This document shows, one piece after another, positions 16,900-57,512 of a stretch of 64,000 nt of DNA; the stretch's first letter is position 1, and each line of letters begins with the position of its first letter. The DNA comes from Clostridia bacterium. Its GTDB lineage: Bacteria > Bacillota > Peptococcia > DRI-13 > UBA5745. Location: assembly GCA_018434325.1 (NCBI GenBank), contig JAHDPO010000004.1, forward strand, positions 124,001 through 188,000, read 5' to 3'. Under the pieces are notes generated by a model, which had not been told where the DNA came from, searched no databases, and saw nothing but the letters and a program-made list of their open reading frames with translations. A program made the position numbers and the translations under genes.

Positions 16900-16935
16900 C
16901 ATTTGGGGGCATCCGCTTACGTATGCCCCCAAATG
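16900..16935. repeat. Perfect 13-bp inverted repeat beside the MITE-like element
   Basis: CATTTGGGGGCAT (16900-16912) and its exact complement (16923-16935) with a 10-base loop and no T-run. It abuts the left end of the 16935-17075 element. Role unknown. Confidence 0.75.
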
Positions 16936-17075
16936 AGCAAAATTGCAAGTTTAAAGTGTCCAGACACCTGCTTATTGATTGTATTTGGCTATGTTTTGCT
17001 GTATTTAGTGTCGAAGTCAGCAGATGGCCGCTATTCTTGATGGGAAAGCACACTTTAAACTTGCAATTTTGCGCA
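16935..17075. mobile_element. MITE-like repeat, copy 1
   Basis: Bounded by a perfect 23-bp inverted repeat beginning GCAAAATTGCAAG at 16937 and ending TTGCAATTTTGC at 17072. The ~90-bp interior shares a conserved core (TTTAGTGTCG..GTCAG then CCGCTATTCT) with the copy at 57304-57431. No full transposase is present. A decayed third end may lie at 17229-17258. The rest of the gene-free stretch 17076-17339 shows only a TATAAT at 17293-17298 before dprA. Confidence 0.75.
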
Positions 17076-17339
17076 AAAATGGATCAGCGAGAGAGATATA
17101 GACTGGATAAATGAAAAGCCAAGCCGTTGCCGAGCGCCCGATGCTCAAAACCTGCTAATGAAAGTCAAGGTGTGTACCTTAAAAAACCTAAAACGAGCGT
17201 GAAGCATAGGCTAATCAGGGTAAAATCAGGTGTAAAACTTAAAATTTTGCACATTTTTCCAAGAGATTCTTATTCTACCTTGCGTTCAATGGTATAATAT
17301 GGTATATTTGATCCATGTTGCACTAATAATGGAGGATAT

Positions 17340-25020: not shown

Positions 25021-25039
25021 CCAGTCCAAGCCGGACATA

Positions 25040-25124
25040 ATACTATTCTGCGATTAAAATAGGGAATATTTTAATCTGGCAATTCATGATTGCCACTGCG
25101 CCAGAGGCGCAGGCAGATTAGTAT
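25040..25124 (+). repeat. Four-way-junction repeat, copy 1
   Basis: Outer stem ATACTATTCTGC (25040-25051) with GCAGATTAGTAT (25113-25124), 11 of 12 pairs. Inside are three hairpins with no base between them: 25052-25076 (10-bp AT stem), 25077-25095 (TGGCAAT/ATTGCCA) and 25096-25112 (CTGCGCC/GGCGCAG). Near-identical in reverse orientation to 44286 and 57047. Confidence 0.9.
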
Positions 25125-25137
25125 AAACTGCCAAACC

Positions 25138-43445: not shown

Positions 43446-43526
43446 ATACTCATCTGCAATTAAAAACTTCGTTTTTAATTTGCCGCATAAAGTGCGGCAG
43501 TGGGCTTTGCCCACGCAGAATAGTAT
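43446..43526 (+). repeat. Four-way-junction repeat, variant copy 2
   Basis: Outer stem ATACTCATCTGC / GCAGAATAGTAT (10 of 12 pairs), enclosing three abutting hairpins: 43458-43480 (AATTAAAAAC/GTTTTTAATT), 43481-43499 (TGCCGCA/TGCGGCA) and 43500-43514 (GTGGGC/GCCCAC). Same geometry as 25040 but unrelated arm sequences. Confidence 0.88.
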
Positions 43527-43629: not shown

Positions 43630-44286
43630 ATGAATGGATATCGCAGAGAACGGGTAGCCACGCTGCATAAAGAAAATATCATGCGGGCGGCAGAACATCT
43701 ATTTTTGGAAAAAAGCTTCATTCAGACCACCATCCAGGAAATATCCAAGCTGTCCGGCTACAGCCGCCGGACGATCTATGCCTATTTTGTAAGTAAGGAG
43801 GATATTTTATATCACATTTCCCTGCAAAAACTGCTGATTTTGCAGAAAGAAGTCATTGATTTGATTGAGTCGACAGACAGCTTTCAGAAAAAGTACGAGA
43901 ATTTTTGCGAGGCAATGATCAGGTTTCATCAAGCCTCAATACAATCCTTCAATGAATTGGGAGCTTATGGGCCAAAGGATGCCGAAGGGCAGGAGCCGGC
44001 GGTGATCGCCGATATCGTTGATTCTGTCACTGTGATCTGTACTCTGCTGGCGGAACTGATCGAAAACGGCAAAGAGCAGGGATTGGTGGCCGAGGATGTG
44101 GAGCCGGCGGCGGCAGGCCAAATCCTCTGGGCAGCCATTTCATCCCTGCTGGATTTAATCAAAATTAAAAAGAATTATATTACTGCCGGTCTGCAAATGG
44201 ACGATAAAGAGTTTTTAAATTATGGTTTTCGTCAGCTGCTCAATTCCCTGCTGGCCCGGCGGCTGCCGGCTCCCGGCGGCAATTAA
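43630..44286 (+). CDS. TetR/AcrR-family transcriptional regulator
   Basis: 218 residues; GAGGAG before the ATG. N-terminal helix-turn-helix (residues ~20-65): IMRAAEHLFLEKSF and SGYSRRTIYAYFVSKEDILY. The C-terminal helical ligand domain is unassigned. A palindrome at its own -10 suggests autoregulation. Targets may include the neighbouring decarboxylase or the upstream operon, but no second copy of the operator was seen at those promoters. Its stop codon is fused to the start of a repeat (copy 3). Confidence 0.93.
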   Translation: MNGYRRERVATLHKENIMRAAEHLFLEKSFIQTTIQEISKLSGYSRRTIYAYFVSKEDILYHISLQKLLILQKEVIDLIESTDSFQKKYENFCEAMIRFHQASIQSFNELGAYGPKDAEGQEPAVIADIVDSVTVICTLLAELIENGKEQGLVAEDVEPAAAGQILWAAISSLLDLIKIKKNYITAGLQMDDKEFLNYGFRQLLNSLLARRLPAPGGN

Positions 44287-44378
44287 TACTAATCTGCAAT
44301 TCTGCCTGCGCCTTTGGCGCAGTGGCAATCAAGAATTGCCAGATTAAAATAGGGAATATTTTAATCGCAGAATAGTAT
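44286..44378 (-). repeat. Four-way-junction repeat, copy 3
   Basis: Reverse orientation of copy 1. Outer stem 44286-44297 with 44367-44378; hairpins 44306-44322, 44323-44341 and 44342-44366, plus an 8-base AATTCTGC duplication at the left junction. It fills the gap between convergent genes: the tetR TAA is at its left end, and the last codons and stop of the decarboxylase lie in its right end. Confidence 0.9.
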
Positions 44379-45791
44379 AAGCCGCCGTTCTATTACCTGG
44401 CGGGCAGATTCCTCCATGGAACGATAGGCAGCTATCACATCGGCTTCTTCCGTCATCCAATTGGTCATACAAACCCTGAGGGCCGGTTTATTTAAATAAG
44501 GCACATAATTGGAATAGGTAATACCCGCTTTTTGCACTTCACCGAGGATCTCTTTGATCAGATCCTCGGTGATTTTTTCCGGGTCCAGCTTCAAAGTAAA
44601 AGCAACGACATTGCTTCTGACTTCATTCAGCAGGCAAAAACAGTCGCTGCTTTTTATCATTTCCCCGTAAAGGCGGCACATAGCCACATTACGCCGGCAG
44701 ATATCGGCATAGCCGTCTTTACCGTAAGCCAGCATAGTGAACCAGGCGGGTAAGGCCCGCAGGCGGCGGGAACCCTCCGGCGTCAAATGGTGGTGTGGGG
44801 TGTTTTCGGAGGCGGCAGCGCCGGCAATCAGCTCATTCGTGAAGCTTTGATACTGCTCATGGCGATGACGGGTCAAAACCACAGCTCCGTCATAAGGCAC
44901 ATTCAGCCATTTATGGGTGTCCATGGTCAGAGAATCAGCATGAGCAAGCAGCCGGAAGCTTTCTTGCCATTCCGGCACGCAGGCCATTAAGCCGCCGAAG
45001 GCGCCGTCGATATGGAGCCAGAAGCCATATTGTTCCTTAAGCTCGGCAATCGCATTTAAATCATCAATATCGCCGCTATTGGCTGTGCCGATGTTGGCAA
45101 TGTAAATCAAAGGCCGGCTTTGATCTCTGGCGGCCAAATAATCCTTCAAGGCCTGGGTATCTACAGCTTCCCGGCCCGGCAGCAGGGGCAGGGCATGGAT
45201 ATGGCGGCCGAAGCCGGCCATCGAGGCGGCCTTATAGTTGGCGCCGTGAGTCAGGCCGGAAGCGATATCCGGACGGGGCAAGCCGTAAAGGCCTTCTTCG
45301 CTGGCGGAATGACCGCTTTGAGCGGCGGCCCATTGGCGGGCGCAGGTAAGAGCCACAAAGGCGCTGGTGGTGGCGCCGGAAACGAAAACACCCTGAAAGC
45401 TGGCCGGTAGTCCTAAAAGCTCCCGGATAAACTGCATGGCTTCCTGCTCAATTTGCCGGTCCAGGCTTCCCGGCTGGCCGAAAGCGTTTTGGTCAATCAA
45501 AGAGGTGTACCAATCACCGGCTAAGGCAGCAGGGGTGACGCCGCCGATCACGTAGCCGAAATAACGGGAGCCGGAACTGGCCGGTACCCAGGGCAGGTAA
45601 TGCTTGCGAAAAAAATTCTGAACTTTTTCGGCGCCCAGTCCTTCGGCAGGTAAAGCCGAGGCGGGAGCACCGGGAAAGCCGGGCTCGACCTTTTGTTTTG
45701 AACGTTTTGCCAAAAAAGCCAAAGCATCTTCATAGGTTTGGCGCAGGATCGATTCCTGCCGCTCTAAATCTTCTTTTAAAATGGGGTACAT
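44361..45791 (-). CDS. PLP-dependent group II decarboxylase
   Basis: 476 residues; GGGAGG 7 bases before the ATG. Fold-type I PLP enzyme of the aromatic/acidic amino acid decarboxylase group: VFVSGATTSAFVAL, WLHIDGAFGGL (PLP ring Asp) and Schiff-base Lys294 in TMDTHKWLNVPYDG. Cytosolic. The substrate (aromatic amino acid, glutamate or cysteine-like) cannot be decided. The last six codons (LILFCD) and the stop come from the adjoining repeat, so the C-terminus may have been altered by its insertion. Confidence 0.88.
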   Translation of the reverse strand: MYPILKEDLERQESILRQTYEDALAFLAKRSKQKVEPGFPGAPASALPAEGLGAEKVQNFFRKHYLPWVPASSGSRYFGYVIGGVTPAALAGDWYTSLIDQNAFGQPGSLDRQIEQEAMQFIRELLGLPASFQGVFVSGATTSAFVALTCARQWAAAQSGHSASEEGLYGLPRPDIASGLTHGANYKAASMAGFGRHIHALPLLPGREAVDTQALKDYLAARDQSRPLIYIANIGTANSGDIDDLNAIAELKEQYGFWLHIDGAFGGLMACVPEWQESFRLLAHADSLTMDTHKWLNVPYDGAVVLTRHRHEQYQSFTNELIAGAAASENTPHHHLTPEGSRRLRALPAWFTMLAYGKDGYADICRRNVAMCRLYGEMIKSSDCFCLLNEVRSNVVAFTLKLDPEKITEDLIKEILGEVQKAGITYSNYVPYLNKPALRVCMTNWMTEEADVIAAYRSMEESARQVIERRLILFCD

Positions 45792-56777: not shown

Positions 56778-57047
56778 ATGGTAATGACCAAAGAATCAAA
56801 AACAGGCGTAATCGAAAAAAACAGGATTCATGAATCGGATACCGGTTCTCCCGAGGTGCAGATCGCCATTCTCACCGAGCGTATCAATTACCTGACGGAG
56901 CATCTGAAGATCCACAAGAAGGATCATCATAGCCGCCGGGGTTTGCTGAAAATGGTCGGCGCGCGTCGCGGCTTGCTGAATTATGTTAAGAGCAAGGATT
57001 ATGACCGCTATAAGAAGATTTTAGAAACTAACGGCATTCGCCGCTAA
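56778..57047 (+). CDS. rpsO: Small ribosomal subunit protein uS15
   Basis: 89 residues: [40 protein letters not shown]. Binds 16S rRNA central domain. The TAA stop is fused to the left end of a four-way-junction repeat, followed by a terminator. Confidence 0.98.
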
Positions 57048-57131
57048 TACTAATATGCGTGGGCCTCTGGCGCAGTGGCAATCAAGAATTGCCAGATTAA
57101 AATATTCCATATTTTAATCGCAGAATAGTAT
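57047..57131 (-). repeat. Four-way-junction repeat, copy 4
   Basis: Reverse orientation of copy 1. Outer ends ATACTAATATGC / GCAGAATAGTAT; AT arm and TGGCAAT arm conserved, GC arm partly decayed (GTGGGCC opposite GGCGCAG). Starts inside the rpsO stop codon. Confidence 0.88.
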
Positions 57132-57197: not shown

Positions 57198-57303
57198 GTG
57201 CGAAAAGCATAGACTTAATAGGTTTATGGGAAAGCTTACAATTATAATGTGTAGACTGTGCTGTTAAAGCGGCAGCGCTGATTCCCGTAACCGCACTCCA
57301 GGT

Positions 57304-57431
57304 GCGCAAAATTTCAAGTTTAAAGTGTCCAAACACCACATGTCGGCTGTATTTATCTATATTTAGTGTCGCAGTCAGGAGATGTCCGCTATTCTGAAGG
57401 AACAGCACACTTGAAACTTGAAATTTTGCGC
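57304..57431. mobile_element. MITE-like repeat, copy 2
   Basis: 25-bp terminal inverted repeat with one mismatch, beginning GCGCAAAATTTCAAG and ending TTGAAATTTTGCGC. The interior core matches the copy at 16935-17075. It lies in the gene-free stretch 57048-57589, which otherwise holds repeat copy 4, a terminator and the pnp promoter. Confidence 0.8.
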
Positions 57432-57512
57432 AAAAAGGAGCGAGCCTACCGCAGCAAAAGGCGATCACCCGCAAGCCGCGCTCCCTCGCCGCTTATTTAT
57501 TTTAAATTACAA

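Follow-up and report, generated by a model that had tools for sequence, protein, structure and literature searches.

Insertion with a 3-bp target duplication is a mark of DDE transposases; the duplicated triplet is TNA in the IS1031 group of the IS5 family and TWA in the eukaryotic Tourist/PIF-Harbinger MITEs. Bacterial MITEs such as Correia/NEMIS, RUP, ERIC and RPE (PMC2229807, PMC10969869) are non-coding, intergenic elements of less than 200 bp with TA-containing termini, terminal inverted repeats, a target duplication and transcripts that would fold strongly, and their body is one long stem-loop. In REPINs, an inverted doublet of hairpin units replicates and singlets are remnants (PMC3116915), and most REPs are sorted by GTAG/CGTC tags (PMC3733652). 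The CIR of Caulobacter/Brucella (PMC2229807) have two structured arms with a linker between them; each arm is a long simple hairpin, and terminal inverted repeats are lacking.

The repeat family analyzed here belongs to a known kind, the MITE-like mobile elements, but its double-cloverleaf body is unusual. It shares the listed traits with the bacterial MITEs, being short (49-197 bp), repeated, non-coding and mostly intergenic, with terminal inverted repeats and a target duplication, but it is built from two four-way junctions of abutting hairpins, duplicates 3 bp (TWA) and can lose one junction as a module. The duplication has the same length and kind as in the IS5/IS1031 group and in Tourist/PIF-Harbinger, whereas searches of the source genome, from which the DNA studied here comes, gave no match to such a transposase. 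As in CIR, a linker joins two structured arms; here, however, the arms are four-way junctions and their outer ends are the terminal repeats.

Within the window (the whole 64,000-nucleotide stretch analyzed), positions 25040-25124 form an outer stem of 12 bp (25040-25051/25113-25124), interrupted by one T.T mismatch, which encloses three directly adjoining hairpins (25, 19 and 17 nt) with zero unpaired bases between them. The DNA fold reaches -27.8 kcal/mol, whereas shuffled sequences average -7.8 (z = -9.2; 0/200 shuffles as good), and the reverse strand adopts an identical fold shape. Coordinates and fold z-score confirm the gap-free four-way junction described in an earlier note on this DNA, and blast and covariance-model searches bear out the repeat family it proposed, with multiple copies in the source genome. 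The element proper spans 25041-25123, because the A and the T at the extreme ends of the interval as first given are part of the target duplication, and this flagged copy is a half-element with the following parts:

25038..25040, no strand: target duplication TAA, left copy (from the family-wide TWA rule)
25041..25123, + strand: MITE derivative, an A-leaf monomer between rpsB and tsf (TACTATTCTGC ... GCAGATTAGTA) (from the fold; the orthologous sister site is a B leaf)
25052..25076, + strand: hairpin h1, AT-rich, 10 bp, 25 nt, centre AGGGAAT (inverted ATTCCCT elsewhere)
25077..25095, + strand: hairpin h2, 7 bp, 19 nt
25096..25112, + strand: hairpin h3, GC-rich, 7 bp, 17 nt
25113..25124, + strand: right arm GCAGATTAGTAT, the outer arm of the lost B leaf (from intact dimers and dimer/monomer orthologues)
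25124..25126, no strand: target duplication TAA, right copy (read from the sequence)

The source genome, a draft of 3.83 Mb in 70 contigs, yielded 53 blast matches and, in the copy-number search that the earlier note had proposed, 91 covariance-model matches (A-leaf model; both strands counted). It holds about 60 leaves at about 45 intergenic places, and the sister species roughly 10. There are two leaf types. Type A reads ATACTATTCTGC + GATTAAAATA..TATTTTAATC + TGGCAAT..ATTGCCA + CTGCGCC..GGCGCAG + GCAGAATAGCAT, and type B reads ATACTAATCTGC + AATTAAAAAC..GTTTTTAATT + TGCCGCA..TGCGGCA + GTGGGC..GCCCAC + GCAGATTGGCAT. The full form is the inverted pair A-AT-B' (B' being B reversed), 170 bp long, or 197 bp with an additional hairpin in B, and its fold is a pair of cloverleaves (-54.7 kcal/mol, z = -11). 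Dimers, whose inner ends are GCAGAATAGCAT/ATGCCAATCTGC, make up most of the genome copies, contrary to the suggestion that the ends always read ATACTAwTCTGC / GCAGAwTAGTAT. Besides dimers there are single A leaves, single B leaves, 49-bp forms with one hairpin, and end remnants. Since several contigs break off within a dimer (C3, C8, C25, C30, C32, C34, C48, C50, C64 and C65), the true copy number is probably higher. A chance origin was rejected on fold z-scores and copy number. Two 49-bp minimal forms (L082 1525-1573, L083 1523-1571), which occupy different places of one contig, C32, comprise the ends plus one B hairpin and are nearly perfect palindromes.

Two window copies had been reported as near-identical and reversed, at 44286-44378 and 57047-57131. 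Both are real and reversed, but the latter, which begins ATACTAATATGC, is not an intact cloverleaf, its third hairpin being broken (fold -15.9 kcal/mol), and the former has 8 additional bases, a remnant of a second leaf, retaining the final bases of B'. It also supplies the last codons and the stop codon of a decarboxylase gene (44361-45791, - strand). A fourth leaf, at 43446-43526, is of type B, related yet distinct, with different hairpins. The features at these places are:

43446..43526, + strand: B-leaf monomer, whose hairpins of 23, 19 and 15 nt make a four-way junction (target duplication eroded, CTA/TTG)
44284..44286, + strand: TAA stop codon of a TetR-type regulator, which is the left target duplication (from the empty site in the sister genome)
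44287..44377, - strand: A leaf plus terminal remnant of a deleted B leaf (from comparison with dimers, fold and sister site)
44361..44363, - strand: stop codon that the element supplies to the convergent decarboxylase gene, whose product ends in RRLILFCD* here and in RRF* in the sister genome
57045..57047, + strand: TAA stop codon of rpsO, which is the left target duplication (from the empty site in the sister genome)
57048..57130, - strand: A-leaf copy with h3 broken, a mosaic of A h3 and B-leaf end (from fold and sister comparison)

The flanks of the family carry the mark of insertion. Among 32 copies for which both flanks are available, the same base precedes ATACTA and follows TAGTAT in 27 (permutation mean 13.9; 0/200,000 as high), position -2 is T in 28 and position +2 is A in 27. 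This pattern defines the element as TACTAwTCTGC...GCAGAwTAGTA, bounded by its terminal inverted repeats, and the duplication as TWA. Exact TWA/TWA flanks are found in 19/32 copies (p about 4e-4); the other 13 may be old or rearranged copies, in which loss of the exact pair would be expected. Four empty sites in the sister genome have a single TWA, compared with two at the filled sites. At rpsO, the sister's empty site CGCCGCTAAGA corresponds to CGCCGC-TAA-[element]-TAA-GA in the source genome; the tetR-type gene has a similar empty site with TAA, and those at L007 and L038 have TTA, the right duplication copy at L038 being degenerate. Flanking duplications and empty sites, both of which the earlier note had proposed to look for, are thus present. 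Integron attC sites and IS200/IS605-type insertion were dropped as candidates because of the target duplication. One junction lies outside the TWA rule: the dimer at L028 1405-1590 has a right end without TAGTAT and CAGCCTC on both sides. The view of CAGCCTC as a longer duplication was rejected, as this repeat is present at the L028 locus only.

From the 3-bp duplication we infer that the mobilizer belongs to the DDE transposase class. DDE_Tnp_4, DDE_Tnp_1 and DDE_Tnp_1_2 gave no match in the source genome, the sister genome has one DDE_Tnp_1 match, and rve gave a weak partial match. In the part of the source genome and the approximately 63% of the sister genome that were read, both drafts, we found neither a transposase gene with matching ends nor an end-pair enclosing a gene; a search through 2.3 Mb of the sister for two ends lying 0.6-3.5 kb from each other and sharing the same 3-bp flank gave four chance pairs, none with TWA. 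Movement as single-stranded REP/REPIN-type elements by a RAYT (Y1 HUH) transposase would be in keeping with an inverted doublet as the full unit and singlets as remnants, as in REPINs (PMC3116915), and with the one Y1_Tnp gene of the source genome (a 167-aa frame). The sister genome, however, carries elements and has no Y1_Tnp gene, so the association with a RAYT/Y1 is lacking, and the family inserts with a 3-bp target duplication, where REP/REPIN insertion would make none, has matched terminal inverted repeats and empty sites, ends in ATACTA/TAGTAT in place of the GTAG/CGTC tags, and is made of cloverleaves, not single palindromes. Identity is higher among doublets than among singlets (92.7% vs 87.1%), which is the direction seen in REPINs but not significant (p = 0.15). 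We consider an origin of this type exceedingly improbable.

Single leaves, the flagged copy among them, derive from dimers by deletion. Most single A copies have GCAGATTAGTAT, the outer arm of B, as their right arm, as expected from a deletion between GCAGAATAGCAT and GCAGATTAGTAT. A's left arm then faces B's outer arm, which makes the T.T stem mismatch a deletion scar; in dimers, this position reads T-A. Orthologous sites capture the loss directly: L092 in the source genome is A only, the orthologous L129 in the sister is a whole dimer, and B' has dropped out of L092 precisely as one unit, at an AT repeat that is short. Between rpsB and tsf, where flanks are near-identical, the source genome has an A leaf and the sister a B leaf. 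The two leaves would come from dimers of opposite orientation, and this site therefore calls for either an inversion or two separate insertions.

Such exact loss of one leaf at L092/L129, the linker-free interior of both leaves, all of whose internal segments are hairpins, and the retention of the architecture while the stem sequence changed would also suit a folded junction that serves as substrate of a structure-selective enzyme, each leaf being independently mobile or excisable and not a passive passenger. Short direct repeats at the leaf feet (AT, GCAGA) nevertheless suffice for slippage deletion and no enzyme was identified; we hold this explanation to be highly improbable. Somewhat less doubtful, but still unlikely in our view, is that the extruded four-way junction itself is recognized during the mobility cycle, with a structure-selective transposase or resolvase acting on each cloverleaf. 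Such recognition would account for the all-hairpin interior, the A/B architecture kept despite stem divergence and the loss of leaves as exact units.

Pairing is strongly preserved between the leaf types. Comparing the A and B consensus over 34 pairs (leaving out one stem position that is A.C, and hence unpaired, in both leaves), 23 are unchanged, 1 is changed on one side, 10 are changed on both sides and 0 are broken. In 32 aligned leaves, 95.5% of cells pair, and the covariation score is 0.302 compared to 0.114 for shuffled and <=0.116 for slid alignments, the alignment being fitted to the A model, which favors structure; the signal stems mostly from the single A/B split and is small within A alone. 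The h1 loop alleles come in exact reverse-complement pairs: ATTCCAT(6)/ATGGAAT(6), ATTCCCT(6)/AGGGAAT(2) and ACTCCAT(1)/ATGGAGT(1). When replication switches template at a hairpin, the signatures described are an inverted loop and compensatory change of several bases (PMC8794818), and the two loop orientations together with the two-sided A/B changes point to such template switching. In our reading, therefore, mutation at extruded hairpins does at least part of the work of keeping the pairing; selection for the fold may also act. Within L084 (G000:C34:1-1700), at 80-164, an inverted h2 copy replaces the 5' arm of h1 (CAATCAAGAATTGCCA), a patch of the kind expected from template switching.

Judged by ORF analysis, 0/45 tabulated copies lie inside an ORF and 11/45, about a quarter, start exactly at a stop codon. 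TAA stops make up 8.5% of the intergenic TWA sites in the window, and the excess has a P of about 0.001. Because TAA + TACTA rebuilds the stop codon, the MITE tolerates insertion there, and the family exemplifies an element whose own duplication restores the stop it enters. The same placement could suggest a cloverleaf RNA acting at mRNA 3' ends as terminator, stabilizer or processing site and dispersed by happenstance, the more so as both strands fold stably and pairing survives the two-sided A/B changes. However, some copies precede genes or lie in divergent intergenic regions, the insertions are polymorphic between sister species and bear a target duplication, Rfam returned no covariance-model match even at E up to 1, and template switching can give two-sided changes without RNA selection (PMC8794818). 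A structured RNA is therefore very unlikely to be the explanation, and the preserved pairing can be explained at the DNA level without an RNA role. Strong two-sided covariation, the usual proof of functional RNA, can thus arise within a transposon family, template switching being a sufficient cause.

The earlier note had known of no described family of this form and had named a match to a known REP/ERIC/MITE or Rfam family as a refutation. The first part stands insofar as Rfam gave no match and literature searches turned up no description of a bacterial repeat as a cloverleaf or double cloverleaf, which is not proof that none exists; yet by that same rule the kind is known, as terminal inverted repeats, 3-bp duplication and empty sites make it a MITE. 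Conservation in relatives, the lack of which the note had likewise counted against its idea, does not extend beyond one sister species, as seen by blast among 60 relatives, by covariance model among 25 genomes of the order and among 46 genomes of the class (0/44 others). Scanned with the end pattern, 84,980 genomes of bacteria and archaea gave 7 matches, one of which is the sister's rpsB copy (JAHDMJ010000009.1, Clostridia bacterium R1-B15.2); the remaining matches were rejected, their interiors and flanks being unrelated. Plasmids and phages yielded no relative, and viral contigs one chance match to the end pattern and none to the hairpin pattern.

Taken as a whole, a MITE with a double-cloverleaf unit, leaf loss, template switching and intergenic survival is very probably the best explanation. 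Leaves A and B would be ancient duplicates forming the 170-197 bp inverted pair A-AT-B'. Once inserted, the foldable leaves would be unstable: slippage between direct repeats at the leaf feet may remove one leaf and give single leaves such as 25040-25124, and template switching in replication would flip hairpin loops and homogenize stem arms. Surviving insertions are almost only intergenic, often in TAA stop codons kept intact by the TAA duplication. The fold may also have a role in transposition itself. With approximately 60 leaves in two species and with orthologous sites to compare, the family offers a natural, countable record of the behavior of tightly packed hairpins in a bacterial chromosome: loops flip, arms co-change and entire leaves drop out.

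Other small elements were seen alongside the family. A second repeat family, at 16929-17079 and 57298-57436 of the window, is another MITE-like element of approximately 140-150 bp. Its terminal inverted repeats measure 26 bp (TGAGCAAAATTGCAAGTTTAAAGTGT / ACACTTTAAACTTGCAATTTTGCGCA), and it has about 10 further places in the sister genome. Finally, at about 17830-17993 of L188, the sister orthologue of L003, a different insertion of approximately 110-160 bp lies near the same TTATCCTA position and is possibly a third small mobile element.
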